Positions 28,623-63,933 of a stretch of DNA of 64,000 nt are shown one piece after another (position 1 is the first letter of the stretch; each line of letters starts with the position of its first letter). The stretch is from assembly GCF_018446385.1 (NCBI RefSeq), contig NC_055987.1, positions 3,656,205 through 3,720,204 on the forward strand, in the 5' to 3' direction. The stretch comes from Zingiber officinale (lineage: Eukaryota; Streptophyta; Magnoliopsida; Zingiberales; Zingiberaceae). Both the position numbers and the translations under genes were made by a program. The notes beneath the pieces are model-generated. The model was not told the origin of the DNA. It saw only the letters and a program-made list of their open reading frames with translations, and ran no database searches.

Positions 28623-28658
28623 AAGGCCGCAAACATCGTTCGCCGAACGGGGATTATA

Positions 28659-28829: not shown

Positions 28830-28878
28830 GATATGATACGAAAGCCAAGGTCGCTCGGCCTGGTAAGGAGTTAGCCTT

Positions 28879-36008: not shown

Positions 36009-36950
36009 CACATACAGCAAATAGATGCGGGTCGGGAATCAAACCTAGCGTACAGGTCGCGACGTTCATACCTTGGATGAAAGTAAATAGATGCGGGTCG
36101 GGAATCAGGCCCAGCGTGCAGGTCGGGATGTTCATGCCTTGGATAAAAGCGAATAAATGTGGGTCATGAATTAAACCCAGTGTGCAGGTCGGAACGTTTA
36201 TGTCTTGGATGAAAACAAATAGATGCGGGTCGGGAATCAGGCCTAGCGTGCCGGTCGGGACGTTCATGCCTTGGATGAAAGCAAATAGAAGCGGGTCAGG
36301 AATCAGACACATCGTGCAGGTCGAAACGTTCATGCCTTGGATGAAAACAAAAAGATGCGGGTCGGGAATCAGACCCAGCGTGCAGGTCGGGACGTTCATG
36401 CCTTGGATAACAACCAGTAAATGCAGGTCGGGACGTTCATACCATGGATAACAGCCAGCAGATGCGGGTCGGGAATCAGGCCCAGCGTGCGGGTCGGGAA
36501 TCAGGCCCAGCGTGCGGGTCGGGAATCAGGCCCAGCGTGCAGGTCGGGATATTCATGCCTTGGATAAAAGCGAATAAATGTGGGTCAGGAATCAGACCCA
36601 GCGTGCAGGTCGGAACGTTCATGCCTTGGATGAAAGCAAATAGATGCGGGTCGGGAATCAGGCCCACCGTGCAGGTCGGGATGTTCATGCCTTGGATAAA
36701 AGCGAATAAATGTGGGTCAGGAATCAGACCCAGCGTGCAGGTCGAAACGTTCATGCCTTGGATGAAAGCAAATATATGGGGGCCGGGAATCAGACCCAGC
36801 GTGCAGGTCGGTACGGTCATACCATGGATAATAGCCAGCATATGCAGGTCGGGAATCAGGCCCAGCGTGCAGGTCGGGACGTTCATGCCTTGGATGAAAG
36901 CAGATAGAAGCGGGTCAGGAATTAGACCCAACGTGCAGGCTTTGAGTAAC
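36009..36950 (+). repeat. 66-bp minisatellite, about 14 copies
   Basis: The period is 66 bp, e.g. GATGCGGGTCGGGAATC at 36024 and 36090. Typical text is CAGGTCGGGACGTTCATGCC, then TTGGATGAAAGC. Near 36470-36540 a shorter 33-bp sub-unit repeats. Because 66 is a multiple of three, long open frames run on both strands with a 22-residue period (for example minus 35977-36399 and 36476-36958). They are a by-product of the repeat, not evidence for a protein. The array lies inside the LTR. Confidence 0.92.
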
Positions 36951-37866: not shown

Positions 37867-38941
37867 TGTAAGACCGTTGGATTCGATAGAGGGGGGGTGA
37901 ATATCGATTCGAAAATCTCGAGTTAAAACGCAGCGGAAATGTAAAGAAGTAAAGAGATGAACACTATTGATTTTTACTTCGTTCGGAGCCTGTGACGACT
38001 CCTACTCGAAGGCCCGTACTCCTTGAGTACTTTCGTTGGGCAATTCACTAGCAATTCGGATAATTACAATTTACGTACAAATATTGCTAATGAAAAGAAG
38101 GAAAACAAAGCTAACCGACAAACAATAAATTAAGAAGGAGAGCCGGAGTGAGTCGTCGGAGCTTTGTGAGCGTCGTTGGAGCGCAGAGCAGCAGAGTGAT
38201 TGGATTCAGAGTTCTCAGAAGACTGATGTTTTGAAGCTCCTGCCTGGGGCTTCTTTTATATGCTGCTCCGGGCGCCTGGATCCCTTCCGGGCGCCTAGAA
38301 TGTGACGTAACACTCCCAACCAGCATTCTCCAAGTGTCAACGTCGTCCTGGGGATAAAACTTGCCTCCGGGCGCCCGGGCCCCTCTTCTCCAGAAAGTCC
38401 TTCTCCTGCAAGAAAAGGTTAGTCCGAGGCAAATGTACCCTGCAGCAAAGAATGTTAGCACAGTTTTATCGATAAGCAAAGTATGACTTAGATTCCGTCT
38501 TTCCGAGACCGGAATCTAGTCACGATCTCGACTTAGATATCCGAAATGGATCTAAGCCGGATCGACGCCTAATGTCCCCTTCCCGGGAACGCGTCCTCAC
38601 AGTCACTCCCCTCCAGTGACTTACCTCACTTACCTGCCAGACGTCCGGTCAGCCCGTCGACCCGTCTGGACTTCTCGCCAAGCGTCCGGTCAGCCCGTCG
38701 ACCCGCTTGGACTTCTCGCCAGCTATCCGGTCAGCCCGTCGACCTAGCTGGACTTCTCGCCAAGCGTCCGGTCAGCCCGTCGACCCGCTTGGACTTCTCG
38801 CTAGCTATCCGGTCAGCCCGTCGACCTAGCTGGACTTTTCCTGCACACTTGATCAAAGTGTCAGACAACAACACAACTAACTTAACCTATTTGTCATTCA
38901 TCAAAACCTGGGTTAGACCGTTAGTGCTACCCGCACCAACA
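37867..38941 (-). repeat. LTR 1 of the tandem element (outer, 3' on minus strand)
   Basis: It is 1075 bp long and reads TGTAAGACCG...CACCAACA on the + strand. It contains five copies of a 41-bp repeat (38642-38846) and one CCGGGCGCCCGG unit near 38355. Confidence 0.93.
38642..38846 (-). repeat. 41-bp LTR minisatellite (five copies in LTR 1)
   Basis: The unit is YRTCCGGTCAGCCCGTCGAC followed by a variable CCGCTTGGACTTCTCGCYA part. LTR 2 also has five copies (44330-44534) and LTR 3 has three (50022-50144). Confidence 0.9.
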
Positions 38942-41895: not shown

Positions 41896-43314
41896 TTATT
41901 TGGTTGCTTTGTGTTGGGTTAATAATGATTTAAAGGTTTTGTTTGAGTTTGACTTATATCCAAGTCCGGTTTTATTATAGCATGCCTTTTGGTTATTTAG
42001 AATTAAATCTAAATTTTTAGATCTTGTTGTGAATTTTTCCAACAATTCTTTTAACTTATTAATTTCATTTTTTAATGATAAATTCTCCTCCTCAAGTGTT
42101 CGGTCTTGAGTTGGATTCGAATTTTTTAATTGTTCCTTGAGGTTTTGATTTTCCTCAAGAAGAGATTTACTTTCATTTTCCAATTTAACTAATTTTTTAT
42201 TTAAACACGAGATAATTCTAAAGAATTTATGATTTAAGTTTAGGTATACCTCTTCGGAACCTTCGGAAACGAGTGCGGACTCGTGGCTTGATTCGGGTTC
42301 GGACCCGTCTTCCGTTTCCTCTGATTCATCTTCCGTTTCAGCTTCGCGAGCCATCAGCGTGAGGTGACTTTGGTGCTTTTGCCTTTCTCCCTCCGATTCG
42401 TCTGAGGAGGAATCGTCCCATGTTGCTTTGAGGGCTTTCTTCTTTGTTGACTTTGGTTTGTCAAGTTTCAATCTTGGGCATTCGTTCTTGTAGTGCCCCT
42501 TTTTGTTACATCCGAAACATGTGACATTTCTTGAGTCGGCTGGCGAACTGATCTTCCTGAAGCTTCTCTTTTTCTGGTGAACATTTTCCTTACCGGGTTC
42601 ACCAGGTGTTCTTCTTCTGAGTCTTGATCGGAATCTTCTTGATTCGGGTTTGTTCTTCTTTTCTTTAGAGGAACCTGCAAATAAAGCTATACCTTTCTCG
42701 ACCCGTTAGTTTGCTCATGAAGTTCTAATTCACAGAAGAGTTCATCCAATTTTAATTTAGATAAATTTTTGAAATTTTGTAGGCATCTACAATTGATGCC
42801 CTAAATTATTTCGTGGAAAAGCATTTAATGCGTACCTTATTAAGTCTCGGTTCTCCATTTGGTGGCCTATCGCGTGGAGACCGTTGAGGATATCTTTGAT
42901 CCTCGCGTGGAGTGACTTGCCGTTTCTCCTTCCTGCATTTTTATATTAAAATTTTATTTAAAAAAATCTTTTTGTTACCTTCGCATCGCTTGTTCCTTCG
43001 TGCAGTTTATCCCAAAGCTCCTTAGCGTTTTGATGCGGTCCGACTCGGTTCAGTTCTTCTCGTGTTAGTCCGCAATGTAGAGTATTGATGGCTTTGTTTT
43101 CAATTGATGCCTTTTTCTTTATATCATTTGTCCAGTCTTCAGGATCTACTATGTTCCCGGAGTTGTCTACTGGAATTTTGTAAGCCTTTGTGACGCTCAT
43201 CCATTGGTCGTAGTCTGTCTTCATGTAGACCTCCATTCTCCTCTTCCAGTACGAAAAGTCATCCCCGTTGAATAGGGGAGGACGTACTGTGCTGAAGCCT
43301 TCTTGTTGAGACAT
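41896..43314 (-). pseudogene. Gag of tandem element, copy 1 (frameshifted)
   Basis: The minus-strand ATG near 43314 starts MSQQEGFSTVRPPLFNGDDF, a Copia gag N-terminus. The frame continues with ELNRVGPHQNAKELWDKL, but is lost near 42958. The middle part (about 42700-42950) is shifted. The zinc-knuckle bases are present near 42475-42530 but out of frame. A coiled-coil tail (LEEENLSLKNEINKLKELL) is open at 42471-41896. No protease or polymerase follows. Copy 2 preserves more of the frame. Confidence 0.85.
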
Positions 43315-43540
43315 CTTATCCTGCACACACTAAATTAACTGGAAAAAGAAAATCCCAAGACTTCGTCTTGGATTAGCAGTGCGGGAAAAAATAGAAACTC
43401 TAAGTTGGTGTTGTACCAATTTAGATTTTAAATGCAACGAAAAAAATCTTCCAAAAAGATAATAATATCAGTTTAGAATTAAAAAAAATTATTTCACCCC
43501 CTGTCTGATTGGTGGTTGCACCAAATCAGAGCGGTACCTG

Positions 43541-43551
43541 CTCTGATACCA
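43541..43551 (-). other. Primer-binding site next to LTR 2
   Basis: CTCTGATACCA on the + strand is TGGTATCAGAG on the minus strand. It shows that LTR 2 is the 5' LTR of internal region 1. Confidence 0.85.
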
Positions 43552-43553
43552 CT

Positions 43554-44629
43554 TGTAAGACCGTTGGATTCGATAGAGGGGGGGTGAATATCGATTCGAA
43601 AATCTCGAGTTAAAACGCAGCGGAAATGTAAAGAAGTAAAGAGATGAACACTGTTGATTTTTACTTCGTTCGGAGCCTGTGACGACTCCTACTCGAAGGC
43701 CCGTACTCCTTGAGTACTTTCGTTGGGCAATTCACTAGCAATTCGGATAATTACAATTTACGTACAAATATTGCTAATGAAAAGAAGGAAAACAAAGCTA
43801 ACCGACAAACAATAAATTAAGAAGGAGAGCCGGAGTGAGTCGTCGGAGCTTTGTGAGCGTCGTTGGAGCGCAGAGCAGCAGAGTGATTGGATTCAGAGTT
43901 CTCAGAAGACTGATGTTTTGAAGCTCCTGCCTGGGGCTTCTTTTATATGCTGCTCCGGGCGCCTGGATCCCTTCCGGGCGCCTGGAATGTGACGTAACAC
44001 TCCCAACCAGCATTCTCCAAGTGTCAACGTCGTCCTGGGGATAAAACTTGCCTCCGGGCGCCCGGATCCCTTCCGGGCGCCCGGACCCCTCTTCTCCAGA
44101 AAGTCCTTCTCCTGCAAGAAAAGGTTAGTCCGAGGCAAATGTACCCTGCAGCAAAGAATGTTAGCACAGTTTTATCGATAAGCAAAGTATGACTTAGATT
44201 CCGTCTTTCCGGAATCTAGTCACGATCTCGACTTAGATATCCGAAATGGATCTAAGCGGATCGACGCCTAATGTTCCTTTTCCTCACTGGATCCCTCTCC
44301 TCGGTGACTTACCTCACTTACCTGCCAGACGTCCGGTCAGCCCGTCGACCCGTCTGGACTTCTCGCCAAGCGTCCGGTCAGCCCGTCGACCCGCTTGGAC
44401 TTCTCGCCAGCTATCCGGTCAGCCCGTCGACCTAGCTGGACTTCTCGCCAAGCGTCCGGTCAGCCCGTCGACCCGCTTGGACTTCTCGCTAGCTATCCGG
44501 TCAGCCCGTCGACCTAGCTGGACTTTTCCTGCACACTTGATCAAAGTGTCAGACAACAACACAACTAACTTAACCTATTTGTCATTCATCAAAACCTGGG
44601 TTAGACCGTTAGTGCTACCCGCACCAATA
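43554..44629 (-). repeat. LTR 2 of the tandem element (shared middle LTR)
   Basis: It is 1076 bp long and ends CACCAATA (the others end CAACA). At about 44265-44310 it reads ATGTTCCTTTTCCTCACTGG where LTR 1 and LTR 3 share CCCGGGAACGCGTCCTCACAG. It has two CCGGGCGCCCGGA units and five 41-bp repeats. Confidence 0.93.
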
Positions 44630-47330
44630 ATCTCCCCCTTTTTGATGGAATGACAACCTGGTTAAGTTAGTGAAAGCATATGTACGAAACAACATGCATT
44701 TGTGTGGTTTTAAAGTTAGTTTGTGTTTTCAAATTGGTTTAGCTAACTTAACCACCTAACCCTTCTCCCCCTTTGGCATTCATAAAAAAGAAAGCAGGGG
44801 TAAATAAGCATAGTGTAGAGTAATAAAAAGTTTGGTTAAAAAAATTCAAAGATATTGATAAAATTAACAGTAAAAAGATAGTCAAGTTGACTTGGGGGAG
44901 TTTAAGCTTTTGAAAATTCGTTTAAAGCATTTAGCTTTTAGCTTTTAGAAAGCTAGTTAAGTTTTGACAGTGATTTAAGTTTGAAAAAATCTAACTTTCA
45001 TAATTTTTAACACTTGAGTTTTTGCAAATCAAATTTCAGTTTGTAAACATTGATTTTGAACTTTACTTTTAGTTTTCAAAGGAGTTTGGTAGAACTAATT
45101 TTGATAAAGTAAAAATAATTAAATCTAATTTTCAAAAATCAAAATTTTAAAGTTCAAAAGTACTATTTTCTAAACCATGGTTTAAAATACTTGAAAAGTT
45201 GAGTTTTCAAAGACTAAGTAACAAGGATAAAAAGTTTGTGATTTAAAATAAAGAATTTTCACAATTTTAAGCAAGTTGATATTGAAAATTGATTTTCAAA
45301 AGTAAGGAAAGTGATTTTGAGAAGCTTAGTTTGTAAACTTAAGTTTTGAAAAATCTAATTTCCACAATTTTCAAAACTAAGTTAAATCTAATTTTCAGAA
45401 TCAATTTTCAATAAAAAGTAAAACCCAATTCTTAAAAACAACTTAGTTTTATAAGAGTTAGTTTTCAAAAGTAGGTTTAAGAAATTTTTGGGAGAACATT
45501 TTTCAAACAAGATTTAAAATATTTTATATAAAGGAAAAAATTTTTTAATTAATTCCTCCCCCTGAACCTGACATCACTTTAACCAGCTGTCTAACCAATT
45601 AGGTACTAACTAACTATCAGAAGATAGTAGCTTTCACTTGGTTAGTCAGATTAAGTTAATTACAACCAGTCAGTGTTTGACTTGACTGATGAACTTTAAT
45701 CTGATTAATATCTGAATTGTATTTAACGTCCAGACTTATGTTGATGCACTGAAATTAGCATCTTAAGTCCGGACAGTTGGCCTATGCATCTCACCCCTTT
45801 CTATGTTTGTCAAACACAAGCAAGGTAACCCTAGGGTGTTGGTGAGATGCTCAAAAACTAGTCCTATGGGTACATGCTTTCTAAGGATGTAAACCTAGTC
45901 TAAGTCAAAAAACTGTTTTTGAAAGTCTAAAAATGGAAATTTTGAAAACAAACAAGTTTAGCCTATAAGTTGATAAAATTATTTTTGAATTTTTTTTGAA
46001 ATTTCCTAGTCTATTGAGATAGAACATATTCAATGTAAGTTTGAAATGTCACTAGATAAATCCAAAATATTTTACAAATAGTGTAGCTACAGAAGTAGGT
46101 CATCACTAAAGCTACTGCGATGATGAAGGGGGTGGTCCAGATCCCAAGGATCGAAGAAGTGCCATCATCTCGGTGTGGCGGGTGTCCCCGGTGTGACTTT
46201 CCTTTTTTTTTTTTTTTTTTTTTTGGAGTTTGAAATAGGTTTAAGTTTTAAAAATTTTAAGTTAAAGTTTTTAAAATAATTTTTAAGTTTAAAATTGAAA
46301 TTTTTAAAATTTTGCAAATAATTTAAAACAAATTTTTAAAAATAATTTTTAAGTTTAACACCAAATTTTTAAGAATAATTTTTAAGTTAAAATTTTGAAA
46401 GTAATTTTTAAGTTTAAAAGCAAATTTTTAAGTTAAAATTTTGAAAATAATTTTTAAGTTTAAAAAGAAATTTTGAAAATAATTTTTAAGTTTAAAAACA
46501 AATTTTTAAGTTAAAATTTTGAAAGTAATTTTTAAGTTTAAAAACAAATTTTTAAGTTAAAATTTTGAAAATAATTTTTAAGTTTAAAAACAAAATTTTT
46601 AAGTTAAAATTTTGAAAATAATTTTTAAGTTTAAAAAGTTAAAATTTTGAAAATAATTTTTAAGGAAAAAACAAATTTTTAAGTTAAAATTTTGAAAGTA
46701 ATTTTAAGTTCAAAAGCAAATTTTTAAGTTAAAATTTTGAAAATAATTTTTAAGTTTAAAAACAAATTTTTAAGTGAAAATTTTGAAAATAATTTTTAAG
46801 TTTTATTCATCTCACCCGATTTATATTATCAATCAAGGAATCCTATGATTTTGTGAGATGAAATTAGTTAGATTACAGAGTTTTGTTTTAACTTGTGTTA
46901 GATTCAGACTTAGCTTTGGTTTCCACAAATAGGCATTCTTCGGATAAACTTCTAAGCTTGGTGAGTCACAAGGACATCATTAGAAGTAACCAACCTTTCG
47001 AGGTTTTCCGAATAGTCCTATCCACGAAACTTAGTACTAAATCTTGGTCTAACTGGTTAGGATTCGTTTAAGGGTAGCTTCGGTCAGTTCCACTTGGCCA
47101 AATGCACCAGATCGAAACCATATCTTTCTAGACATGCGATGCCCAAGCTTCCCTAACGTACTATCATCCAAAAACTTCACCAGTACCATGAGTCAAGTTA
47201 AACTTGGTCTCTCTTTAACCAATCCTAATTACCCTGCCGGGTTAGTTTGTTTTGGGTTACCCTGTCGGGTAGGTTAGTTTTGGAGGTGCCAGCTATTCTG
47301 GAGCCTCCCCCTGAATTATTGGCCATTAAT
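44630..47330 (-). other. Non-coding AT-rich part of internal region 2
   Basis: It matches 38942-41895 closely and likewise has no open frame. It differs near 44885-44960 and in poly-T and minisatellite length (array about 46250-46800). Confidence 0.8.
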
Positions 47331-48989
47331 TTAGATTTTGGGTTTGTGTCGATTCTTTTTATAGTTATAATCAACTTGGTGATAATCTAAATTTTGTTGA
47401 GTTTTGAATTTTGATTTTAATTTATATTTTAGTTTTTGATCTGATTTATTCAAGTTTATATAATGTATTTTATCTTTAGGTATATAGAATTGATTAAGTG
47501 CTACTTGTGTGGTTAAGCACGCTTTCGGGACCCAAGCTTGTTTGGTTGCTTTGTGTTGGGTTAATAATGATTTAAAGGTTTTGTTTGAGTTTGACTTATA
47601 TCCAAGTCCGGTTTTATTATAGCATGCCTTTTGGTTATTTAGAATTAAATCTAAATTTTTAGATCTTGTTGTGAATTTTTCCAACAATTCTTTTAACTTA
47701 TTAATTTCATTTTTTAATGATAAATTCTCCTCCTCAAGTGTTCGGTCTTGAGTTGGATTCGAATTTTTTAATTGTTCCTTGAGGTTTTGATTTTCCTCAA
47801 GAAGAGATTTACTTTCATTTTCCAATTTAACTAATTTTTTATTTAAACACGAGATAATTCTAAAGAATTTATGATTTAAGTTTAGGTATACCTCTTCGGA
47901 ACCTTCGGAAACGAGTGCGGACTCGTGGCTCGATTCGGGTTCGGACCCGTCTTCCGATTCCTCTGATTCGTCTTCCGTTTCAGCTTCGCGAGCCATCAGC
48001 GCGAGGTGACTTTGGTGCTTTTCTCCTTCCGATTCGTCTGAGGAGGAATCGTCCCATGTTGCTTTGAGGGCTTTCTTCTTTGTTGACTTTGGTTTGTCAA
48101 GTTTCAATCTTGGGCATTCGTTCTTGTAGTGCCCCTTTTTGTTACATCCGAAACATGTGACATTTCTTGAGTCGGCTGGCGAACTGATCTTCTGAAGATC
48201 CTGTTTGCTGAAGCTTCTCTTTTTCCTGGTGAACATTTTCCTTACCAGGTTCACCAGGTGTTCTTCGTCTTCAGAGTCTTGATCGGAATCTTCTTCAGAT
48301 TCGGGTTTGTTCTTCTTTTCTTTAGAGGAACCTGCAAATAAAGTTATACCTTTCTCGACCCCGGCGTTAGTTTGCTCATGAAGTTCTAATTCACAGAAGA
48401 GTTCATCCAATTTTAATTTAGATAAATTTTTTGAAATTTTGTAGGCATCTACAATTGATGCCCACAAATTATTTCGCGGAAAAGCATTTAACGCGTACCT
48501 TATTAAGTCTCGGTTCTCCATTTGGTGGCCTATCGCGTGGAGACCGTTGAGGATATCTTTGATCCTCGCGTGGAGCTGACTTGCCGTTTCTCCTTCCTGC
48601 ATTTTTATATTAAAAATTTTATTTAACAACAAATCTTTTTGTTACCTTCGCGTCGCTTGTTCCTTCGTGCAGCTCGATCAGTTTATCCCAAAGCTCCTTA
48701 GCGTTTTGATGCGGTCCGACTCGGTTCAGTTCTTCTCGTGTTAGTCCGCAGTGTAGAGTATTGATGGCTTTGTTTTCAATTGATGCCTTTTTCTTTATAT
48801 CATTTGTCCAGTCTTCAGGGTCTAGTATGTTCCCGGAGTTGTCTACTGGAATTTTGTAAATCCTTGTGACGCTCATCCATTGGTCGTAGTCTGTCTTCAT
48901 GTAGACCTCCATTCTCCTCTTCCAGTACGAAAAATCATCCCCGTTGAATAGGGGAGGACGTACTGTGCTGAAGCCTTCTTGTTAGACAT
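47331..48989 (-). pseudogene. Gag of tandem element, copy 2
   Basis: A 433-residue frame (48632-47331) covers most of gag: KIFNIKMQEGETASQLHARI (capsid), then a zinc knuckle CFGCNKKGHYKNEC near 48150-48110. Next come an acidic serine-rich stretch and a coiled-coil tail. The N-terminal part lies in another frame (48912-48619), with a one-base difference at the start codon region (48980-48989). A second frameshift lies near 48630. It ends without protease, integrase or RT, so the family is gag-only and would need another element's enzymes to move. Confidence 0.87.
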
Positions 48990-49231
48990 CTTATCCTGCA
49001 CACACTAAATTAACTGGAAAAAAAAATCCCAAGACTTCGTCTTGGATTAGCAGTGCGGGAGAAATAGAAACTCTAAGTTGGTGTTGTACCAATTTAGATT
49101 TTAAATGCAACGAGAGAAAAAATCTTCCAAAAAGATAATAATATCAGTTTTGAATTGTAAAAAAAATGATTTCACCCCCTGTCTGATTGGTGGTTGCACC
49201 AAATCAGAGCGGTACCGGCTTTGATACCACT

Positions 49232-50239
49232 TGTAAGACCGTTAGATTCGATAGAGGGGGGGGGTGAATATCGATTCGAAAATCTCGAGTTAAGACGCAG
49301 CGGAAAAGTAAAGAAGTAAAGAGATGAACACTGTTGATTTTTACTTCGTTCGGAGCCTGTGACGACTCCTACTCGAAGGCCCGTACTCCTTGAGTACTTT
49401 CATTGGGCAATTCACTAGCAATTCGGATAATTACAATTTACGTACAAATATTGCTAATGAAAAGAAGGAAAACAAAGCTAACCGACAAACAATAAATTAA
49501 GAAGGAGAGCCGGAGTGAGTCGTCGGAGCTTTGTGAGCGTCGTTGGAGCGCAGAGCAGCAGAGTGATTGGATTCAGAGTTCTCAGAAGACTGATGTTTTG
49601 AAGCTCCTGCCTGGGGCTTCTTTTATATCTTTCGGGCGCCTGGAATGTGACGTAACACTCCCAACCAGCATTCTCCAAGTGTCAACGTCGTCCTGGGGAT
49701 AAAACTTGCCTCCGGGCGCCCGGACCTCCGGGCGCCCGAATCCCCTCCGGGCGCCCGGACCCCTCTTCTCCAGAAAGTCCTTCTCCTGCAAGAAAAGGTT
49801 AGTCCGAGGCAAATGTACCCTGCAGCAAAGAATGTTAGCACAGTTTTATCGATAAGCAAAGTATGACTTAGATTCCGTCTTTCCGAGACCGGAATCTAGT
49901 CACGATCTCGACTTAGATATCCGAAATGGATCTAAGCCGGATCGACGCCTAATGTCCCCTTCCCGGGAACGCGTCCTCACAGTCACTCCCCTCCAGTGAC
50001 TTACCTCACTTACCTGCCAGACGTCCGGTCAGCCCGTCGACCCGTCTGGACTTCTCGCCAAGCGTCCGGTCAGCCCGTCGACCCGCTTGGACTTCTCGCC
50101 AGCTATCCGGTCAGCCCGTCGACCTAGCTGGACTTTTCCTGCACACTTGATCAAAGTGTCAGACAACAACACAACTAACTTAACCTATTTGTCATTCATC
50201 AAAACCTGGGTTAGACCGTTAGTGCTACCCGCACCAACA
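49232..50239 (-). repeat. LTR 3 of the tandem element (outer, 5' on minus strand)
   Basis: It is 1008 bp, shorter because it has three instead of five 41-bp repeats, and it carries a deletion near 49628. It has three CCGGGCGCCCG units near 49715-49765. The adjacent primer-binding site is mutated (TTTGATACCA, 49220-49229). Confidence 0.93.
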
Positions 50240-51863
50240 GGAGCAGCCTCAAGCATCTGTAGCTGAGAGTTCACAGCCGCGAGATTCGAAGAAGGGAAAG
50301 GCCCTTGTTATACCTGAAGCATTCCCCGAGGATCCAGACGAGAAAGTACCTTTCTCAGCCATGATTCTAAATGAAAGACTGCCTAAGGGTTATAGAGCTC
50401 CATCGATCGAAGAATATGATGGGAGCAAGGATCCGGAAGATCATCTGTGAAAATTCAAAAACGCAACCCTGCTGCACCAATATAGCGATGCTGTTAAATG
50501 CAGAGCTTTCCTAAATACTTTATCTGGTTCATCCTTAAAATGGTTTGACGGGTTGCCTCAAGGGTCCATCACCTGTTTCCTGGACTTCAAAACGGCTTTT
50601 CTGCGCCGATTTGCCAGCAGTAAGAAATATCAAAAGACAGATCATTGTCTTTTCGCTCTAAAGCAGAGGCCGACTGAGCCCCTAAGAAGTTATATAAACC
50701 GCTTTAATCAAGTGACTCAAGATGTTCCCACTGCCACTTCGGAGATTCTGATGAGTGCCTTTTCCCATGGATTGGGAGAAGGTGAATTCTTCAGAGATCT
50801 CATTAAGAATCCTGCTCGGAATTTTGATGAGATGGTGGAAAAAGCTGCTTCTTACATCAAGGTAGAAGAAGCACAAGCAGCTCGCAGGAAGGCCGAAAAA
50901 CCACTTCCTCCCACCAACAGGCAGGAAAGAAGAGCGCCTCAACCACCCCCTCAACCTCTGCCACGAGCCCGGGAGGTCCGACCTGCCTTTCATTCCGGAC
51001 CCGAAATTCGACCTGCCCCTCGAGTGGCCGCTGTACATATCCCCCGACCTAGGCCAGGGAGTAATCGATATTGCACTTATCATAGATCCCATACACATGA
51101 TACTAACCATTGCTTTCAGTTTGCTCGGGACTCTAAGCGAGTTGCTGAGATGGGTTTGCCCCCACCTGAGCTAGCTCCTCAGTTAATCAAGATGATGGAA
51201 GAACAAAGGGTGGCGGGACAAGCCGGGCCATCTCGCCCTGACCTCGCAGGCACTCATCAGCCTGGCCGAGGAAAAGAGCCAGAAGGATCACGAGAAGTTG
51301 AGAACAGAGGCAATGCGGCCGTCAGAGAGATAGGCATGATCTCAGGGGGGCCAACCGACGGGGACTCAGGGAGAGCACGAAAATCTCATGTTCGGCGATT
51401 GGAGGTTCATGCTGTTGGGTGCAGTCAGGATCAAGCTGCTGGCCCTGTTATTAGTTTTGGGCCAGCAGACCTGGAGGGCTTGGAGTTGCCTCATGACGAC
51501 GCACTCATCATCAAAGCCATCATTGCCAACAACCGAGTGGCTCGGGTTTTTGTCGATACCGGGAGTTCAGTCGACATTCTATTCAGGACTGCATTTGAAG
51601 AAATGCAGATTGATGCTGCTGAGCTTCAACCAGTAGCCACCTCTTTATATGGATTCACGGGCAATGAAGTGAAGCATATGAGTCAGATTAAGCTGGCTAT
51701 ATCTCTGGGGACCGAGCCACTGGTGCGCACAAGGAGGAGCACGTTTATAGTGGTGGATTCCCCTTCTTCTTATAATGTTATCCTAGGGAGGCCCGCCCTG
51801 CATGAATTTAGGGCCGTTGTCTCCACCTTTCACCAAAAAATCAAGTTTCCTGTGGGCGAGTAG
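50240..51863 (+). pseudogene. Tat element 2 gag (rest) and protease
   Basis: This is the same frame as 37599-37866 after the nested tandem. TGA at 50448-50450 interrupts the capsid just before KFKNATLLHQY, where element 1 has Gly. Capsid (KWFDGLPQGSITCF near 50540) and basic linker follow. The protease part reads VDTGSSVDILF near 51550 and VDSPSSYNVILGRPAL near 51754. TAG at 51861-51863 ends this part, and the frame resumes directly after it. Confidence 0.9.
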
Positions 51864-54800
51864 GCCGGGGAAGTTAGAGGGGAACAGAAGGTCTCTCGGC
51901 GATGTTATATCGATATGGTCCGAGTTGAGGCTCGGAAACATCAAAGGATGCAGGATGGAGGTGTTCATGTCGTTCAAGAGGAGCATCTTCCTATATCTGA
52001 GGAGCCTATCCCCTGGGAAGAAGTGCAACTACATGCTGAGCGACCTGAGAGTCTGACTAGGGTTGCGAGCGATCTGTCCTCTTCCCTCAAAGAAGAATTA
52101 ATTCAGTGTTTAATCCGCAATAGGGATGTATTTGCCTGGTCTACGGAGGAACTTCCTGGGGTTAAGCCAGAGGTGGCTGAGCACAAGTTGCATTTGTTAC
52201 CTGAGTCCCGGCCCGTGAAGCAAAAGAAAAGAAATTTCTCAGCTGACCAGAATAAAATAATAAGAACCGAGGTGGACCAGCTCAAGAAGGCCGAACATGT
52301 TCGAGAAGTGCAATTTCCCTCATGGCTTTCCAACGTGGCCTTGGTAAAGAAGCCTAACAACAAGTGGAGAGTATATATAGATTTCCGAGACCTTAACCGG
52401 GCCAGCCCCAAAGACTGTTATCCTCTGCCTCAGATTGATCAAATGATGGATTTCACAGCCGGATGCGAAAGAATATGTATGCTGGACGCTTACCAGGGGT
52501 ATCATCAAATACCTCTAGCCCGGGAAGATCAAGAGAAGGTTAGTTTTATTACGGCTGACGGTACTTTCTATTATACTGTCATGCCCTTTGGCCTCAGGAA
52601 CGCCGGAGCCACATACCAGCGAATGATGGATAAAATCTTCCGGGAGCAGATCGGGCGAAATGTGGAAGTTTACGTAGATGACATACTTATCAAGTTCCCG
52701 CTGGCTGAAAACTTGATCAAAGATGTGGAGGAAACGTGCAGAACTCTTCGACAGTATGGGTTGAAGCTCAATCCCTTGAAATGTCTATTCGGGGCTAAAG
52801 GAGGAAAATTCTTAGGTTATCTGGTGACCGAGCGAGGAATAGAGGCCAATCCTGAAAAAGTTCAGGTACTCAAGGATATGCAGCCGCCTCAGAATTTAAA
52901 GGAAACTCAGAAGCTGTTCGACAGAATAACAACCCTGTCAAGATTCATTTCCATATCTGCGGATCGGGCCGCCCCTTTTTTCAAGGTGTTAAGGAAAGCC
53001 TCCAAGTTCCAGTGGGATGAAGAATGCACTAAAGCTTTTGAAGAGTTGAAGAAGTATCTGGAGACCCTGCCTTCTCTTTTTAAGCCAATTATAGGGGAAC
53101 CCTTATGGGTTTATTTGTCAGCCACCCCTGAGGCTGTAGGGGCAGTGCTCGTTAAAGAGCATGACAATGTATAACGACCAGTGTATTTCTTCAGCCATTT
53201 ATTGAAGGGCGCCGAGTCCCGATATACGACACTCGAGAAGTTGGTTTACGGATTGGTTCTTATGGCTCAGCGGTTACGACCTTACTTTTTATCGCATCCA
53301 ATCACAGTTTTAACCAATAGCACCATGGGAAGAGCACTGACTAATGTCGAAGTTGCGGGTCGGCTTATTAAATGGGCCACAGAGTTGGGAGAATACGACA
53401 TACAATATCAGCCTCGCACCACTATTAAGGCACAAGCCCTAGCAGATTTCTTAATAGAGGTACATCAAGCCAGCCCTGAGGAAACGTGGAAGATTTATGT
53501 GGATGGGTCTGTTAATCATCAAGGGAGTGGAGTCAGTGTCTTAGTAATATCTCCTCAAGGAGATATACTGCAGGTGGCAGTGCGATTGAATTTCCGAGCC
53601 ACTAATAATGAGGCAGAGTATGAAGTTTTGTTGGCTGGGTTGCAAGCAGCCCGACATGTTGGAGCAGCCCGGGTAATCATCTATTCAGATTCCCAGTTGG
53701 TGACTCAACAGGTTACTGGCAACTTTATTATAAATTGTGATAAATTGCAAATGTATCGGGAAGCCTATGAAAAGATGAAGGCAGAATTTACAGAGGTCAC
53801 TATAACAAAGATACCCCGGTCAGAGAATGAGCGAGCAGACAAATTAGCAAAGATGGCCAGTTCCTTAACTACTTGGGTGCTGGATCGGTCAACGGCGCAA
53901 ACCTTTATGATAGCCCAGATAGATTTGCAAAACAATGCAGGAGCAACTATTGATTGGCGGGCACCCGTGATTAGTTATCTCAGGCAAGGGATCTTACCTA
54001 CAGATCCCGAGGAATCCCGATTAATAAGAAGGCAAGCCCATGCTTATGTCATGATTGGGGACCAGCTATACAAAAGATCCTTCTCTCGACCCTTGCTTAA
54101 ATGTTTGAGTATAGAGGAAGCCGACCAGGCCTTGCGAGAAATACATTTAGGATGTTGTGGCAGTCATGTGGGAGGTCGGACGTTATCTCGCAAGGTACTC
54201 CTGGCCGAGTATTTCTGGCCTACTTTACAAAGGGACACTCAGAGATTGGTGAACACCTGCTTGTCCTGCTAGAAACATCAGAACTTGACACATCGACCTA
54301 CAGCTTTGTTGAGAACGTCGATCGTGTCCTGTCCTTTTGATCAATGGGGCATGGATATCGTAGGACCATTTCCGATGGCACCCAGTCAAAGGCGTTTCTT
54401 ATTGGTAGTCATGGATTATTTTTCCAAGTGGGTAGAAGCAGAAGCCTTGACCCGGATTACGGAGGATGCGGTTATTCAATTCTTGTGGAAGAGCATCCTT
54501 TGCTGATTTGGTATTCCTCATAAGCTGGTGTCTGACAATGGAAGGCAGTTTCAAGGACAAAGAATACAAGCCTGGTGTAAGGGATTTGATATAACGCAAG
54601 TTTTCACTTCAGTAGCTTATCCTCAAAGCAATGGTCAGACTGAAGTAATTAACAGAGAAATAGTCCGAGGTCTGAAGGTTAAGCTAGAGCATGTAGGAGG
54701 CAATTGGGTGGAAGAGCTACCAAGCATTCTATGGGCTTATCGTACAACATCTCGGGAAAGCACAGGTCTGACGTCATTTCACCTGGTTTATGGCAATGAG

Positions 54801-55178
54801 GCAGTGGTACCCATAGAGATTGGTGTACCGTCAGTTAGAAGGATACTCTATGATGAAGGAAATACGGAGCGACGGCTAGCTGAGCTGGATCTTATTAGCG
54901 AAACCCGAGATCGAACGATGGCTCGGCTAGAGGCTTATCGGCAAAGAATGAGACAAAATTACAACCGAAGAGTAGTTCCCCGATTCTTTGGGGAAGGAGA
55001 TCTGGTCTGGAAGCAAATCAAGCCAATAGGAGATGTGACTAAGTTAGCACCGCAATGGGATGGACCTTATAAGGTCATTAAAAAGTTAGTTTCCGGAGCT
55101 TATTATTTGCAAGATGAACAAGGTAAGAGGCTGGATGGGCCCTGGAGCGCTAATTACCTACGACCTTATCGAGTTTGA
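51864..55178 (+). pseudogene. Tat element 2 pol, four-stop relic in one continuous frame
   Basis: Reverse transcriptase (YVDDILIKF near 52672) is followed by RNase H (FFSHLLKGAESRYTTLEKL near 53190) and a second RNase H (IYVDGSVNHQGSGVSV near 53490, NNEAEYEVL near 53604). Integrase follows with its zinc region near 54150-54270, WGMDIVGPF near 54345 and LVSDNGRQF near 54526. All parts are in one frame to TGA 55176. Stops at 51861 (TAG), 53172 (TAA), 54270 (TAG) and 54504 (TGA) interrupt it. At 53172, 54270 and 54504 the comparison with element 1 or the family suggests Gln or Arg codons changed by C to T. Confidence 0.93.
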
Positions 55179-55389: not shown

Positions 55390-56954
55390 TCATTGTATAT
55401 CGAAAGGATCGAATATCTCGTTTGATATCTCTTTAAGGATTCGATCATGGTCCAGGAATTCAGGAGGGGAAATGGATTTTAAATAGTCTTGCTCGTGAAG
55501 TTGTCGTAATGCTCCGCCCGGCCAGTAAATAACAGACGTGGAAAAATGATGTCCCACTTGGGCGCAAAATTCTGGAGAACGCAGATACACAGCGCGGCTC
55601 TGTAAGCATCGATCGTTCTCCCCTTCTTTATAAATCGTTAAAGTCGTTGACATGCCCTCTGTTGTGGCTCTAGCCTGAGCTAGTTCATTTCTGGCAGTGG
55701 CCAAGTCTGTCGCTTGGGAACTCAGACGGGTCTCCTGAGATTGTAAAAGGGCCTCCTGTGATTTTAACTTTTGATCCTGATTCTGCACCAGAGTCTCGGC
55801 CGCACGCAGTTTTTGAACCAACTGGTCCATAGCTCTTTGCTGCTCTAGAGCCTGCTGATCCATATTCTGTTGGTGCACAGTATCGGCTTGACTTTGCTTT
55901 TTCTGGAGATCTTTAAGTTCGTGGTTGGATAGAGCTAGGGACACTTCTAGACTATTTTTCCTTCTGGCCAGCTCTTTTATTTCCGCTCGCAAAGCATGAC
56001 TGGCTTGGGTAGGATTGTTTAGTTGTATTTCTAGTTCAGCAACGCGGTCTCGCAATATCTTATTCTGATGATGAGCAGCGTGGAGAGAATGATTCATTAT
56101 CAGAGATTCTGCATAGGCCTGCGACACATAAGAAGTATCTGATAAGAGTGAGAAAAGCAACAGTTGGGGAATCTTTAAGGGGTACCTTGGTATATAACTC
56201 TGCAAATGGGTCCATCTGGGCCGGGGGGGGGGGAGGGGCAAGGAATCCATATGCCGCAGGCTTTCTTCCCATATAGTGGCCAGACGACCTTTCATTTTTA
56301 GGGAGCTGGTGGGAATATCCGTTCGAGGCCATAATTGTGCCTCAGAAGGAAGAGTGGTGCAATAATCCTGATAAATAAGCGGAGGAGGGCCTGAGGGACC
56401 CGCAGCGGAATTTGGAGGAGCTGAAGGCTCGTCGGTTGCATCGAAAGGAGCTGAAAAAGGTCCTTGAGGAGGTACTGCAGGTGGGATAATAAAGGGGCGC
56501 TCCGAGGGGCCGGCTTCATCTTCTTGAGCATGTGGCGAGGGGGCAGAGGGAGCAGATGGGGGCTCGGCCCGATTATTAGATGGAGGAGGATCAGCTGCCT
56601 GACTCGGGGATGAAGGGGGAGTCACCTGAGGGTGTGTAGGAAAAGCAGCTGCATTTGGAGGAGAAGGGATAGATGATGGGCCAGAGTCAAATATTGGGCA
56701 AGGAGCTCGGTGCCGACGTCTCTGAGACAGCGGCTGATCGTCAGAGTCAGAGTCGACGGAAGACGATCGAGCCGTGCGTCTAGAAGGAATAGAGACATTT
56801 TGACTCAGGCGTACATTTGTGGCACGAGCCCGACAAGCCGCATGAGAGGCCTCTCTGAAAGCAGGATCAGCAAAGGGGACGTTGCTCGTTCTTCCGCCAA
56901 GGCCCATAAGCCTTGCACTAAGACCCAGACCAGGGATGTAAGAGGCCCGGGGAG

Positions 56955-57236
56955 CACTACAAGAAAAAAGCCAACGGTTTTTCACCGTTGTCGTAGCCCT
57001 TTTCGGACTGTTGTTAAAGGCTGTGTTGTTAAAGGGGGTACTCAAAGACAACAGTTTTTAACCGTTGTCTTTGAAGGCAAAGACAACAGTTTTACAACAG
57101 TGAAAAACCGTTGTCTTTTCATTCAAAGACAACAGTTTTTCACCGTTGTCTTTGAGCGTCTACCTTTAATAACAGGGTCTTCAACAACAGTTTTAAACTA
57201 TCTACGACAACGGTGAAAAACCGTTGTCTTTTTTAG
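56955..57236. repeat. CACTA left terminal and sub-terminal repeats
   Basis: Short motifs around CAACGGT/ACCGTTG and CAACAGT occur at least ten times in both orientations and can form hairpins. Confidence 0.88.
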
Positions 57237-57406
57237 ATAAAAAATAAAAAAAATTAATGCACAATTTTCCAATATTATAAATCATTCAAAATACTAAATT
57301 TCAAAATAAAATTTAATATACAATTTTCTAACATTCAAAAATAATATCTATAACATTCTGAAGAAATTTCATAAGCAACCAACAAAATTTCATAAGCAAC
57401 CAACAA

Positions 57407-60390
57407 AATACAACAAAGCTATGACCAAGTGCTTTTGAAGCAAATTCTCCCCTAGGAAGGCTATCACATTGTTTGCTCACTTCAGCTAAAATTGCATCAA
57501 CATTGACACCATCTCCAGCAATGACAAGAACTACCTGACTGTCAGGACCATGTTCTGCCTGTAAAATTAGCGATTTTATAAAAGAAGAGCACCAAACCCA
57601 TGGAACAACTATCCTTATAGCAATTTGAAAGGTTTCATTGTGGATTTTTATCAAGTCTTCAGGTAATAAATTCCAGCTACTGAAAATTACAACAAAAAAC
57701 ATTAATAACACAGGCACAATAGAACAAAAGACTCTGCACCTGAGAGAGTAGATCTGCAGCTATGTGAACTGGATTGGCATGTCTATCGGCGATGACCAGC
57801 ACCTCTAAAGGGCCAGCAGGCATATCAATGGAAACCATGGCTTCACTATTCTGCAAATCAGCCAAAGTATTCGCCAAGGATCATTCTCTTCGTGATCAAC
57901 AAAATGAACAGCTATGAGGATTGAACAAAAATTTAACTATTGTAGAGACATATCTCTAATACAATATCTATGAGATATATCCATACCAATTGAACACATT
58001 ACTGGGAATCAAAAATGAAGCCACGACACTGGCAAAGGTTATCGGAATTAGGGAGAAACAAATAAATAACACCCAAGTTGATAGGTCAAAGCAGATTTAT
58101 CTTTTTAAGTGTCAGAAAATTGATTGTAGATGATTTGTGTATTACCTGGGCAATGATGTAGTTGTTTCCACTCCAATCCTGAGTCTAGTTTTAATCGCTC
58201 AAAAATGATATTTGCATTCACTATTTAGAGGCTATCAATGTCACAATTTTTTAAGCTAAGAACATAAACATTATTATAGTTCCCACTGGCTATGAAACTT
58301 TCTTGATAAAATTTGGTTCCTGTGTTTCTGTTAATCACTTTTCCAGGAAATAACAGTACCTGAGGTACAAGATTCAATTTTATTCTTAAGGCAGGGATTT
58401 AGCTGAATGATTGTTCCTAACAAATCTTATCTGACCTATAGCTCCAAGTTTCTGATTAACTACAAAGGGAAAAGAGCTAATAGTTTACAGAAGAGCCAAC
58501 TGATCTGTCATTTCATTCCTGAAAGATCTAGAAAGGAATGGCCATATTATCTGTTACATTTTGATCTTCTTACTTAACATATTATCTTCTTCCAAAAATC
58601 ACCACAAAACAAGATAATTAATACTACAGATTTGATTTGATTTGATCACTACATTTCCAGTACCTCATGACAAGGAAAAAGTCATTTGTGCATAGGACTA
58701 AAACAAGGTAAGTAGATGTAATCAAATGATAAGAGCAATATTCATAGAAATGTGAGGCTACAGAATTATTATCATACCTAGAGAATCATTTTTGCAGCAG
58801 TAACATATTGATTTCCTGGCCCAAAAAATTTTTCAACCTGAAAAAAGCAATTAAAACATAGACGTAAAAGTAAGTGCAATCAATATTACATAATGCTTAA
58901 ACCAAATGAAGAGGAGTATCAATTAAAAGCTTGACAGAAAACAAAGATTGAGTTAGTAGGGAGATCCTGCACCACAAGAGAATCTCATATAGGTGTATAT
59001 TTGTTCATGTATGATATGTAGGATTGACACAACAGCTATAGGAGGGGGTAGTGAATAGCTGATGTCTGAAATACACAAATCAAAATCTTGAGTGCAAAGC
59101 TTAATTAAATGTTCGTTACTCAATGAAATAAAATAAGCAACACTAACTCCGTTGGTTCAGAACGCCTACATTCCAAATGTTTTTGTACTAACTAAATGAG
59201 AGATTCAAATATAGAATGCAGCAGAGAAATTTGCATACAATGCTCAGGCAACAAAATCCACCGTAATATAGTATCATATTCATGAAACAAGGCTTAATAT
59301 ATGTATATATATAATTGAAGCATGAGAATAATAGTTTGTGGTCAAGATTGCAAAAATGATGATTTTGTATGCAAGACAGCTCTCCTGTAAAAAAGTTTGT
59401 AAAAGTAGAAGATGAGTTAGTGCTAGTGTTCCTAGTTCCTACTCTTTCTAGCCAAGATGCTCACCTATCACTATTAAGTTTCCCAAAATGATAAAGAGAT
59501 ATCACCTCAAAATCAAGCTACATATACAAAGCACAAAATTACAATCCAGATAAAGCAAAGACAGAAGAAACTTGAAAATACTGCCAAACAAGAGATGCAA
59601 CTTTCAATGGTGAGGGTTTGCAATCAACGTATTAGATGTTTGTAAGGATTACCTTTGGGCAAGATGATGTTCCCCAAGCCATCGCTGAGATCGCCTAAGA
59701 TAGAATGCATTGATACCATTGTGAGAAAAGACTTGTTGAAGAAAAAAAGAATGAAAAGGGTTAGAAATTGACGAACCTGAGCTCCCCCAGCTTTTAGAAT
59801 GTGGGTGACGCTAGCTTTCTTTGCACAATATAACACTTCCTGTTGTCACATAATCATGTTAACCTATGTCTTAACATGGAAAACCAGTGTAGGGATAGTG
59901 ATGATAGATTATTTTTTAAGGCTACCTTGCAAATACTGCCATCACGACTAGGCGGAGTTGCTAGAACAATGGTTTTGCACCCGACAATCTGTGTAGGCTG
60001 GTGCATACATAAATAAATTAAAAGTTAAACCAGATCCTTTTGCCTAAATGTGTCAAAATTCACTATGACTACAACATTGGATATTGTAAACAAGGATACT
60101 ATACCACCGAGAGAATCAAAGCAGTTGAGGGTAAGACTGCAGTACCCCCTGGAACATAAAGGCCAACAGATGCAATGCACCGTGCTATTCTTTTGCACCT
60201 CACCCCCTTATGCATGTTCATTCTATGAATTCAGTCACAAGTACAAGGAAAATAAACAAGAAAAAGAAGGCTAGTGCCTTATTCTTACTTTCATATTCTC
60301 AATCTCCTTCTCAGGAATCCTTTGAGCAGCATGAAATGCATTAATATTGTCATAGGCCACATCAAACGCTTCTCTTACTATAGGATCAAG
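57407..60390 (-). pseudogene. HDH: Captured histidinol dehydrogenase gene segment, eight exons
   Basis: Histidinol dehydrogenase catalyses the last two steps of histidine synthesis in plastids. On the minus strand eight exons can be read: 60390-60289 ([19 protein letters not shown]), 60206-60105 ([15 protein letters not shown]), 59997-59926 ([15 protein letters not shown]), 59839-59777 (THILKAGGAQ), 59694-59653 (AISAMAWGTSSCPK), 58837-58778 (FFGPGNQYVTAAKMIL), 57850-57740 ([15 protein letters not shown]) and 57558-57407 ([12 protein letters not shown]). All junctions are GT-AG and keep frame. The zinc-ligand region LLSQ|AEH is retained across the last junction. The N-terminus (transit peptide) and the C-terminal third with the catalytic Glu-His are absent. 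TAG ends exon 6 where Gln is expected, and the conserved Ser of GPSEV is Leu. Intact introns show capture at the DNA level. It cannot make an enzyme. Confidence 0.93.
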
Positions 60391-60835
60391 CTTAACAATG
60401 ACAGAAAAATAAACCCACGGACAGCAGCTGGATCGAAAGAGAGGAGCTCGACGTCGGCAAGATCGGGAGAGGAACTCAGCGTTGGCTTGGAGAGGAATGC
60501 GGCGACACTGCCAGGCTGGGCTCTACACCGTGAACAGATGGCGATGCCCTAGCGCGAGGAGGCGGCGGTAGTCGAGTGGTGCCAGTGTGATCTGCGATGG
60601 CGGCTGCGTCAGAGCGACTGCAATAGGAAACTAGGGCACGGGAGAGGGGAAAGGGCGGCGGTGATTAGCAGTAACCGGCAGCACCCTCGACGGCTGGCGA
60701 TGGCTGTGGCTTCGGGAATGTGAGGGTAGCGGCGGCTGCGTCTTTCGCGGAGAAGTCGCGAAGGAGGAGTCGGAGATAGGTTTTTGTTCGTTTGAAGAGT
60801 CATAGAGAAGTGAGTTTTAGGTTTTTTTTCATGAA
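60391..60835. other. GC-rich segment inside CACTA, origin unknown
   Basis: It lies upstream of the first captured exon and is much more GC-rich than the rest of the element (60420-60780). It may be a further captured fragment such as a 5' end and promoter of another gene. The 64-codon frame 60803-60609 (minus) has no recognisable features. Confidence 0.4.
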
Positions 60836-61125
60836 GTTAAAAAAACTGTTGTGTTTTTAGGATTCAACAACATTCAATAGACAACAGTTTAATAAAACTG
60901 TTGTATATTATCACATAAGCAACACTAAAAGATAATAGTTTTTTAAAACCGTTGTCTTTGACACACATTAGACAACAGTGTTTTGAAAAACTGTTGTTAT
61001 TTAAAAAACATTATGGTGAACAACAACAGTTTTCAATAAAACTGTTGTTAAATGGAAAAAAGACAACAATTTCTTAAAAAACTGTTGTCTATTAGGTGTG
61101 GTTAAATCCAAAAATTCTTGTAGTG
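60836..61125. repeat. CACTA right terminal and sub-terminal repeats
   Basis: Repeated ACAACAGTTT and AAACTGTTGT motifs lead up to the TTCTTGTAGTG terminus. Confidence 0.88.
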
Positions 61126-62232
61126 AAGGGTTCTCCAATGGGGATGTTGCAGCAATAGGCTGAGCCGTACGTGGGGCTCGGGGGCTAGAGGGAGCTCGAG
61201 GGCGAGTGCGAGTAGCCGATCGAGGGACGCGAGCAGTCCGAGGGCGAGTGGGACGAGCCAAAAAAGAAGGTCGAACAGCAGGAGGTCTTCGGTGAACAGG
61301 TCTGGGCGGTGGATTAGCCGAGGAAGCCCCACCGATTGAGGTTGAAGATGAAAAGGGGAGGCTCTTCTTTCCAGGATAACTCGCCCTCGCCTCATTATCT
61401 CCATGTCACTCAGAGGAAGGGGATGAACCTCCGAGGCATGAGTTAGGACTTCCGCTGCACCAGGTAAAGTGTGAAGCAACTTGCCACCGAAGAAGAGTAA
61501 AGTACTCAAGAAATGAGGACAGAACACAAAGAAATACTTACCCAGTGAGCGAGGCGTCTCCTGGGTCAGATTGCTCAGGCGGAAGTAGGACAACATTTCC
61601 TCCGATAGTAGACGCACTAAGTTAATGCGCCAGCCTGCCAAGCGAGATGAGGCTTCCAAATAGGAAGTGTCGAGATGAAATTCGCCCAGTTCAGGAGAAG
61701 AGGGAAGTGATTGTTGCCATCGTAGAGGCCACTCTACGTCGCGAGGAAAGGCAATAAAGAAAAATTGGTTTCTCCAGCTATGGTCGGAAGGCGGTAAGGA
61801 GGAGAAAAAAATTAGTGCGAAGACGGGGCTGAAAGCGAAATACGCTTTCTTCTTGGTGCCGTAAAGTGAAGAAGCAATGAAATAAGTAGGCGGACCAGGA
61901 TATTTCACACACTTCACACAAAATTACAAAGCTGCAGAGGAGCCTTATGGAATTGGGTGTCAGCTGCCCCAGAGGAATACGGAAATAGCGGCCGATATCG
62001 ATAAAGAAGGGATGGATGGGAAGACGGAAACCAGCCACAAATTGTTCTTGGAAAAAGGTACTGGAGCTAATAGGGGGCTCAAAAAATCGATGTACTCCAG
62101 TTGGGATGATCACTTGCATGTCATCCTCGACCCCATAAGTGTAGCGTAAGTCATCTCGAACACATTCATCAAAAGAAGAAGAGCCAGGGTAAAAAATGAC
62201 ACCAAAGAAGAAAGGAAAGAAGAGGATGTCAT

Positions 62233-63028
62233 GATAAGAGGCGAAAAAGGATCAAATAGAAAGGAGCGGAAGCGGGAAGGCCGCAAGTACAGGGTAGAAG
62301 CAAAGAAGGCCAAACGTTGCAAAGCGAAAGAAAGGAGAATATTTATAGGCGCCTGGCAAAGGGGTATTTTCGTCAGATTATCATCCGTAAGCGCAAAATA
62401 ATTGGCGGGAACAACAAGAGCGGTAGGATCAGCTTTGGGAATAACGCCTAGGGGCATGCGGGGAAAAGTGTTGGCACGAAGTACGAAGAGGCGGACATTG
62501 GGAAAAGACATCTTGGTCTCAAAAAAGTAGTTGTGCTTTCCCGAGCTGGCTTATCTCCTAAATAATAACTGGCATATGAGCAGACCTGAAGAAAGAGTGG
62601 TTCAGATCTATAGTTGATTTCCTAGTCATCCTCAACACAGACCGGAACCCGGACGAATACTGGCCTGTAAATTTTTAAGGACTTGGACTTCAAACTTAGA
62701 CCGACCTGTAAAGGAGAACGAGGAAAGATCGAAAAGTAAGAATAAGGCAAAATTAGTAGGAGAAGGTAAGGAAGCAGGTCAGGAAATTAGAGAGATCCCT
62801 GACCATGGGTAAGTGAGATCTAAAACAAAAGTCCAAAATATGAACAGGAGAAGGATCGAGTGTCAACAACAATAGATCAACACAATGTCAGCTGATTACT
62901 ATGATAAACGTCAAAGGTCCACTACTAAGGCATATCAAAAGAAGCACAAGCATGTCAAAGAAAGACGTTGGAAGTAGAGGTTGTTCAAGTACAGTTTCAC
63001 ATCAAGGCATATAATACACAGTGCCTGT
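62233..63028. other. Region upstream of Tat element 2 antisense gene
   Basis: It contains a minus-strand TATA box at 62341-62347. Otherwise it has no credible coding sequence. It shows no resemblance by eye to the Tat element 2 LTR, so the 3' LTR does not lie here. Confidence 0.5.
62341..62347 (-). promoter_or_regulatory. Candidate TATA box of the Tat element 2 antisense gene
   Basis: ATTTATA on the + strand reads TATAAAT on the minus strand, about 110 bases upstream of the antisense ATG at 62232. Confidence 0.5.
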
Positions 63029-63933
63029 CTAGAGAGGGTTGTCTGCGGGAGTCGAGTTATCAACAACAGGGTCTGCGGGGGGTTCAGGCGAGTCTGGAGC
63101 AGGGGCAGCCGGAGGTTCAGGTAGAAGGAAGAAGTCGTCGTCATCCTTGAAGGAGGGGAAGGACCCATCAGGAATTTCATCCAAGATGCGGTCTACGTCT
63201 ACAAAATCCTCCGAGGGGACAGATAAAATCATGTTCTGTTCCAGCATTTGACGAGCTCCTCCATCCACGCCGCAACATACCATGAAATGCATTGCATCAC
63301 CTATTTTCTTTATGAAGAAGGGGGAGGTGACATATGCTCGTCTGTAGGCCCTCAGTCGACCCACTTCGCCTGCTTGATACTCGGCCAACTGTGTCTGGGC
63401 TTTCTCCGTGGCGCGCGAGCTTGAGTCAGGGCCTCTCGACTTTGGGTGACCTCCTCTTAAGCTTGCAGAAGGTTGGCTTGCACAGCCTTAAGAGTTGCTT
63501 GGCTGGCCTCCCATTGGGTTTGGAGAGTCTTCTCCCGGTCGGCGCTAGAAGCAAGCTGACTTTGGACTTCCGCCAGGGTCTTTTGAAGACTCTCTCTGGT
63601 TCCTTGTAAGCCGGCCAGTTGAGCATCCTTCTTTTCTAGCTCAGCCGCCAGCTCTTGGCGCTTTTCTACCTCGGAGGCCAAAGCCGACTTACTGGTCTGC
63701 ACATCTGCTTCCAAGACCCTTATTTTGTCAAAAGCTGCATGGGAAATATCGCGGGCTGTGTTAGCAGATTCTCCAAGAAAGTGAAGATATTGTGCTAAAT
63801 CTCCAGGAGTGGGGTTAAGTGGGTCGCGAGGAGTCAAGGGCAGCTCTACTTCCTCTAGTCGAGCTTTCAGCCTTTCATTTTCTCTGAGCAAGTCACAGGC
63901 GTACTTAACGATACTTAGATTGGCGGAGCAGGC
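63029..63933 (-). pseudogene. Further antisense gene of the same family, last exon only
   Basis: A splice acceptor (TAACACAG) precedes an exon starting at 63933 (ACSANLSIVKYACDLLRENE). It encodes a coiled coil (LRENERLKARLEE...) and a C-terminal block (AEYQAGEVGRLRAYRRAYVTSP...VDVDRILDEIPDGSF). This matches in order the last exons at 55390-56118 (IYKEGENDR...DHDRILKEI) and 29909-30562. An acidic, proline-rich tail (63120-63030) follows. A frameshift lies between 63388 and 63457. It is either a tandem second antisense gene in Tat element 2 or the end of another Tat-like element. Upstream exons are beyond the window. Confidence 0.75.

Follow-up and report, generated by a model that had tools for sequence, protein, structure and literature searches.

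The analysed window, 64,000 nucleotides of Zingiber officinale contig NC_055987.1 (positions 3,656,205 to 3,720,204 of the forward strand), holds at 56955-61125 a non-autonomous transposon of the CACTA (En/Spm) type, 4,171 bp in length. The superfamily is recognised by inverted ends that start with CACTA, a 3-bp target-site duplication and a subterminal motif repeated near both ends, and its members depend for movement on a tnp2-type transposase from their own family. The main parts of the element and its flanks are:

56955-61125, minus strand (that of the carried histidinol dehydrogenase sequence): complete non-autonomous CACTA element
56952-56954, unstranded: left target-site triplet, GAG
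56955-56965, plus strand: left terminal inverted repeat, CACTACAAGAA
56966-57240, unstranded: left subterminal region, with seven copies of AACRGTTTT in 56955-57240 and a strong foldback
57241-57405, unstranded: stretch of 18% GC separating the left end from the captured gene
60414-60800, minus strand: GC-rich block, not histidinol dehydrogenase, borders approximate
60835-61114, unstranded: right subterminal region, with seven copies of AACRGTTTT in 60835-61125 and a foldback
61115-61125, minus strand: right terminal inverted repeat, CACTACAAGAA on this strand
61126-61128, unstranded: right target-site triplet, AAG, with one mismatch to GAG

Direct reading of the terminal inverted repeats gives identity at 11 of 11 positions, with divergence further inward. 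When all inward-facing CACTA...TAGTG pairs in the window with a spacing of 300-20,000 bp were scored, that at 56955/61125 was the sole 11-bp match among 542, the next two reaching 9; the perfect 11-bp CACTA-type ends described in the initial annotation are therefore upheld. The 3-bp target-site duplication agrees at two of its three bases (GAG versus AAG), and mismatched duplications are reported for 14 of 339 Tpn1 elements (PMC5105172). Matches to TTCTTGTAGTG at 42485 and 48121 were weighed as additional CACTA ends but discarded because they occupy the equivalent place in two near-identical Copia-like gag frames, themselves identified by a weak Pfam match below the cut-off, and have no adjacent subterminal motif.

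The motif AACRGTTTT, picked after the repeats had been seen and counted on both strands, occurs 17 times in the window: the element's left 286 bp and right 291 bp contain seven copies each, and three lie outside the element. There are none on either strand of the 3,594-bp core, and in a control in which the left, right and core parts were each shuffled 300 times, no shuffle had more than two copies. The copies are arranged as overlapping inverted repeats. When each end is folded as a single DNA strand, the z-scores are -15.8 on the left and -6.6 on the right, and all 200 shuffles fold less well in both cases, so that the subterminal hairpin motifs noted earlier are present at both ends. Repeated subterminal stem-loops have been described in soybean CACTA elements (PMC2613891).

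Between these ends lie eight consecutive exons of histidinol dehydrogenase (HDH), which run from 60390 down to 57406 on the minus strand, a correction to the earlier description. Exon borders were placed by hand with homology as the guide:

60289-60390, minus strand: HDH exon E1, 34 codons
60105-60206, minus strand: HDH exon E2, 34 codons
59926-59997, minus strand: HDH exon E3, 24 codons
59777-59839, minus strand: HDH exon E4, 21 codons
59653-59694, minus strand: HDH exon E5, 14 codons
58778-58837, minus strand: HDH exon E6, 20 codons; ends in TAG at a position that is Gln in Medicago HDH
57740-57850, minus strand: HDH exon E7, 37 codons; Leu replaces the NAD-binding Ser277 of Medicago HDH
57406-57558, minus strand: HDH exon E8, 51 codons, ended by the capture breakpoint

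The exons total 705 nt and each has a length that is a multiple of 3. All seven introns (82, 107, 86, 82, 815, 927 and 181 nt) are in phase 0, begin with GT and end with AG. Thus the initial description of eight in-frame GT-AG exons stands with respect to the exons, their introns and their lengths, but not to an open frame throughout, since E6 ends in TAG. Retention of the introns indicates that capture was from DNA and not from mRNA; this is no retrocopy. The roughly 24 nt directly upstream of E1, with an AG, resemble the 3' end of the original intron. The stretch 57364-57405, which abuts the left breakpoint of the captured HDH segment, comprises two copies of a perfect 21-bp unit, which might be the trace of a repair event that joined the pieces.

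The HDH peptide matches Pfam PF00815 with an E-value of 2.1e-82 and the chloroplastic HDH of Medicago (PDB code 5vlb) with an E-value of 8.7e-128, 193 of 234 positions being identical in an ungapped alignment. A chance origin is rejected, as this match and the motif counts given above are far beyond shuffles. The best available match is to a plant HDH of known structure and shows homology, not the donor locus. The aligned fragment corresponds to Medicago residues 116-349 only and, as first proposed, both ends of the enzyme are missing. No second HDH piece, no long match to the element and no related copy with the same ends was found elsewhere in the 64-kb window.

The copy is damaged. The TAG that closes E6 is codon 147 of the spliced fragment, and in E7 a conserved serine is replaced by leucine. 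We number this residue Ser277 by aligning Gln299 and His302 with the QAEH of the fragment, which shifts the chain numbering by 32. Gln299 and His302 are themselves retained, in E8 and the last residue of E7. Ser277 of Medicago HDH binds NAD+, while His368, Asp401, Glu455 and His460 are substrate or zinc contacts (PMC5585171); these four residues, like everything before residue 116, lie outside the captured segment. In view of the stop in E6, the change at Ser277 and the missing contact residues no working HDH is expected, and any product of the fragment would be inactive. The zinc, substrate and cofactor residues and the open frame of a functional HDH are not found together in it. Where Medicago HDH and a bacterial HDH (PDB code 6an0) agree, the fragment deviates at 12 of 121 positions, the stop included, although several of these substitutions are conservative and do not necessarily reflect damage.

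Both the TAG in E6 and the leucine at Ser277 are compatible with C-to-T changes. Observed/expected CpG ratios are 0.32 in the HDH exons, 0.21 in the introns and 0.20 in the right end, against 1.14 in the GC-rich block and 1.06 in the left end. These contrasts fit decay or differing sources alike and decide nothing. Decay by cytosine deamination was considered and not adopted as an explanation.

The interval 60410-60800 between E1 and the right subterminal region (391 bp) is 61% GC. In the maize En/Spm element a GC-rich leader adjoins the subterminal repeats, and the block seen here may be a leader native to its CACTA family or a second captured fragment. The latter, taken as a second captured gene, gains no support from Pfam, as all 12 frames of at least 35 codons in 60391-60860 were scanned (ten at E up to 1, two at E up to 0.1) and none gave a match. 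In the core of the element, 21 frames of at least 50 codons overlap 57241-60400, the longest of 143 codons and containing E8. Five carry HDH exons; the other 16 gave no Pfam match above the cut-off and one weak match with an E-value of 0.077. The core therefore appears to contain no transposase-like frame, on a measure of frame length that could miss a transposase in short exons, and this agrees with the earlier designation of the element as non-autonomous. Known RNA families gave no matches within the element at the gathering threshold.

The element sits within a Gypsy retrotransposon, for which the relevant features are:

50451-55175, plus strand: gag, reverse transcriptase, RNase H and integrase frames of the host Gypsy
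55393-56952, minus strand: antisense frame, left part, 520 codons, without Pfam match
61127-61405, minus strand: antisense frame, right part, 93 codons; its last codon spans the junction when the parts are joined
61781-62251, minus strand: separate antisense frame of the host Gypsy, Transposase_28 (PF04195), E-value 7.9e-15

The 93-codon part, like the left part, has no Pfam match. At present both open stretches of the interrupted antisense frame extend slightly into the CACTA element. Deletion of the element plus one triplet joins the 93 and 520 codons into a single antisense frame of 613 codons. Restoration of the frame by chance would occur roughly one time in three, and the result cannot separate removal of 4,171 bases from removal of 4,174. 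A search of the window yielded no relative in which the 613-codon frame runs uninterrupted, the only other match to it being 36.7% over 79 codons at 63173-63409. The host resembles Retand-type elements in its antisense PF04195 frame, a likeness judged from frame layout. Retand Gypsy elements are described as characterised by antisense frames located after pol and before the 3' LTR, found in 97% of PF04195-bearing clusters (PMC11963269).

How did HDH coding sequence come to lie between CACTA ends in such a place? We are highly confident that the element is a Pack-CACTA, in which CACTA ends surround an intron-containing slice of a plant HDH gene, and which inserted in the Gypsy antisense frame and then decayed. 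Host coding DNA, here HDH, is present between the ends, and the survey of 21 core frames revealed no transposase gene inside. A Pack-CACTA would also be expected to have a parent gene at another place in its genome and to share its ends with related copies. If, instead, an HDH pseudogene had been resident first, two separate CACTA insertions or fragments would have to flank it by coincidence, which we judge extremely improbable. The 613-codon frame closes once the whole unit is removed, so the HDH piece most likely arrived with the CACTA element and was not an earlier resident. Nor does the element show any CACTA ends in its interior. In the whole window there is a single CACTACAAGAA against three instances of its reverse complement, and the two of these that lie beyond the element are at the matching place in two near-identical Copia-like gag frames. 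As judged from the sequence, a CACTA element with HDH cargo most likely entered a retrotransposon.

A plausible history of this Pack-CACTA would begin with two neighbouring CACTA insertions that flanked part of an HDH gene. The pair could then have been mobilised as a single unit by transposase acting in trans, in keeping with the published capture model in which neighbouring CACTA copies move jointly (PMC8903248, PMC13317346). The composite would next have transposed into the Gypsy antisense frame, and decay after insertion might have left the stop in E6, the change of Ser277 to leucine and the single triplet mismatch.

Might the element act on its parent gene? siRNAs that dampen the essential HDH gene could putatively arise if the HDH copy is transcribed or the ends fold back. 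This is compatible with a Pack-CACTA, and we regard it as unlikely. Both ends fold back strongly, 38 of the 145 captured genes on wheat chromosome 3B (26%) are reported as transcribed (PMC4290129), and the soybean element Tgm-Express1 is described as giving chimeric transcripts (PMC1947982). However, the HDH sequence sits between the ends and is itself no inverted repeat, and a transcript from the GC-rich right end would be sense to the HDH exons, one from the left end antisense. Given the wheat and soybean transcripts, a regulatory effect on the parent HDH gene is by analogy possible in principle. That the element is a live regulator, with a promoter or leader at the right end, a spliced HDH copy, and siRNA or decoy RNA that tunes the parent gene, is very unlikely.

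Expression of the fragment as a useful chimeric protein, the GC-rich block serving as first exon, is scarcely credible. E1 does retain its AG acceptor, GT and AG are intact in seven of seven introns, and no stop interrupts the frame between 60522 and the end of E1. Nevertheless, there is no in-frame ATG between the upstream stop and E1 and, in the unspliced sequence, not one of the six ATGs that precede E1 inside the element starts a frame leading into that exon. The best-looking donor in the block, chosen by eye from donors that were listed but unscored, is only 24 nt from the acceptor. Moreover a protein would have to contend with TAG at codon 147, the altered Ser277 and the lack of His368, Asp401, Glu455 and His460. 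The Pack-CACTA would yield, at most, spliced chimeric or siRNA-generating transcripts and in its present state is most likely a silenced pseudogene copy within a transposable element.

Tgm-Express1 is non-autonomous, as is the present element. It is likewise described as a CACTA element with host gene fragments that keep their introns and splice sites, but it carries five unrelated fragments, is located in an intron of F3H and produces chimeric transcripts (PMC1947982), whereas here we observe one long HDH slice plus a GC-rich block, located in a retrotransposon. The Tpn1 family of Ipomoea nil, as described, is similar in being mostly non-autonomous with the interior replaced by captured genic DNA, in its conserved ends with subterminal repeats (a comparison of their presence, not of motif sequence) and in 3-bp duplications, some of them mismatched; the terminal inverted repeats are 28 bp in Tpn1 compared with 11 bp here (PMC5105172).

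On wheat chromosome 3B, 140 CACTA-mediated capture events are reported for 145 genes, of which 46% are rated as probably functional in structure and the remainder as pseudogenes (PMC4290129). Those captures average 3.05 exons and 488 bp of coding sequence (PMC4290129), so that the cargo of the ginger element, with eight exons and 705 nt, is above this average. The Pack-CACTA elements of Arabidopsis, rice and maize share the presence of coding DNA inside and the absence of transposase, and the Arabidopsis ends, CACTACAA, are like those found here (PMC8903248). In that account the duplications are 5 nt, as opposed to 3 bp with one mismatch in our case, and the pipeline requires related copies so that singletons are dropped (PMC8903248). 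Captured gene fragments have also been reported in CACTA elements of Chenopodium (PMC8978399).

HDH as CACTA cargo may be new, whilst this kind of capture is already well known; no co-mention of histidinol dehydrogenase and CACTA was found in the literature searched, a scope that excluded most subscription papers. The element leaves existing knowledge of such transposons unchanged. Its value is that it illustrates DNA-level gene capture cleanly, with donor introns, splice sites and reading phase still legible and a landing site that closes. It also carries a warning for annotation in that a multi-exon HDH-like gene model at this position would be a transposon passenger.

Other repeats are evident in the window. 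A short way before the host Gypsy's gag frame lies a Copia-like element (37867-50239) with three LTRs (37867-38941, 43554-44627 and 49232-50239), two internal regions that are 95.5% identical and a single 5-bp duplication, GGAGC, at its flanks. This arrangement suggests a single insertion of a tandem double element with a shared LTR. A second Gypsy element (22724-33486) has 734-bp LTRs (22724-23457 and 32753-33486) of 98.2% identity, an antisense PF04195 frame at 31645-32220 and 5-bp flanks of ATGAT and GTGAT. Between its pol and antisense frames is a tandem array (28881-29593) with a 122-bp offset in self-comparison. Direct repeats at 1-2593 and 7197-9792, 96.9% identical, are possibly the LTRs of an element cut by the start of the window. 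Another tandem array, at 36016-36939, has self-comparison offsets that are multiples of roughly 66 bp, 132 bp among them.
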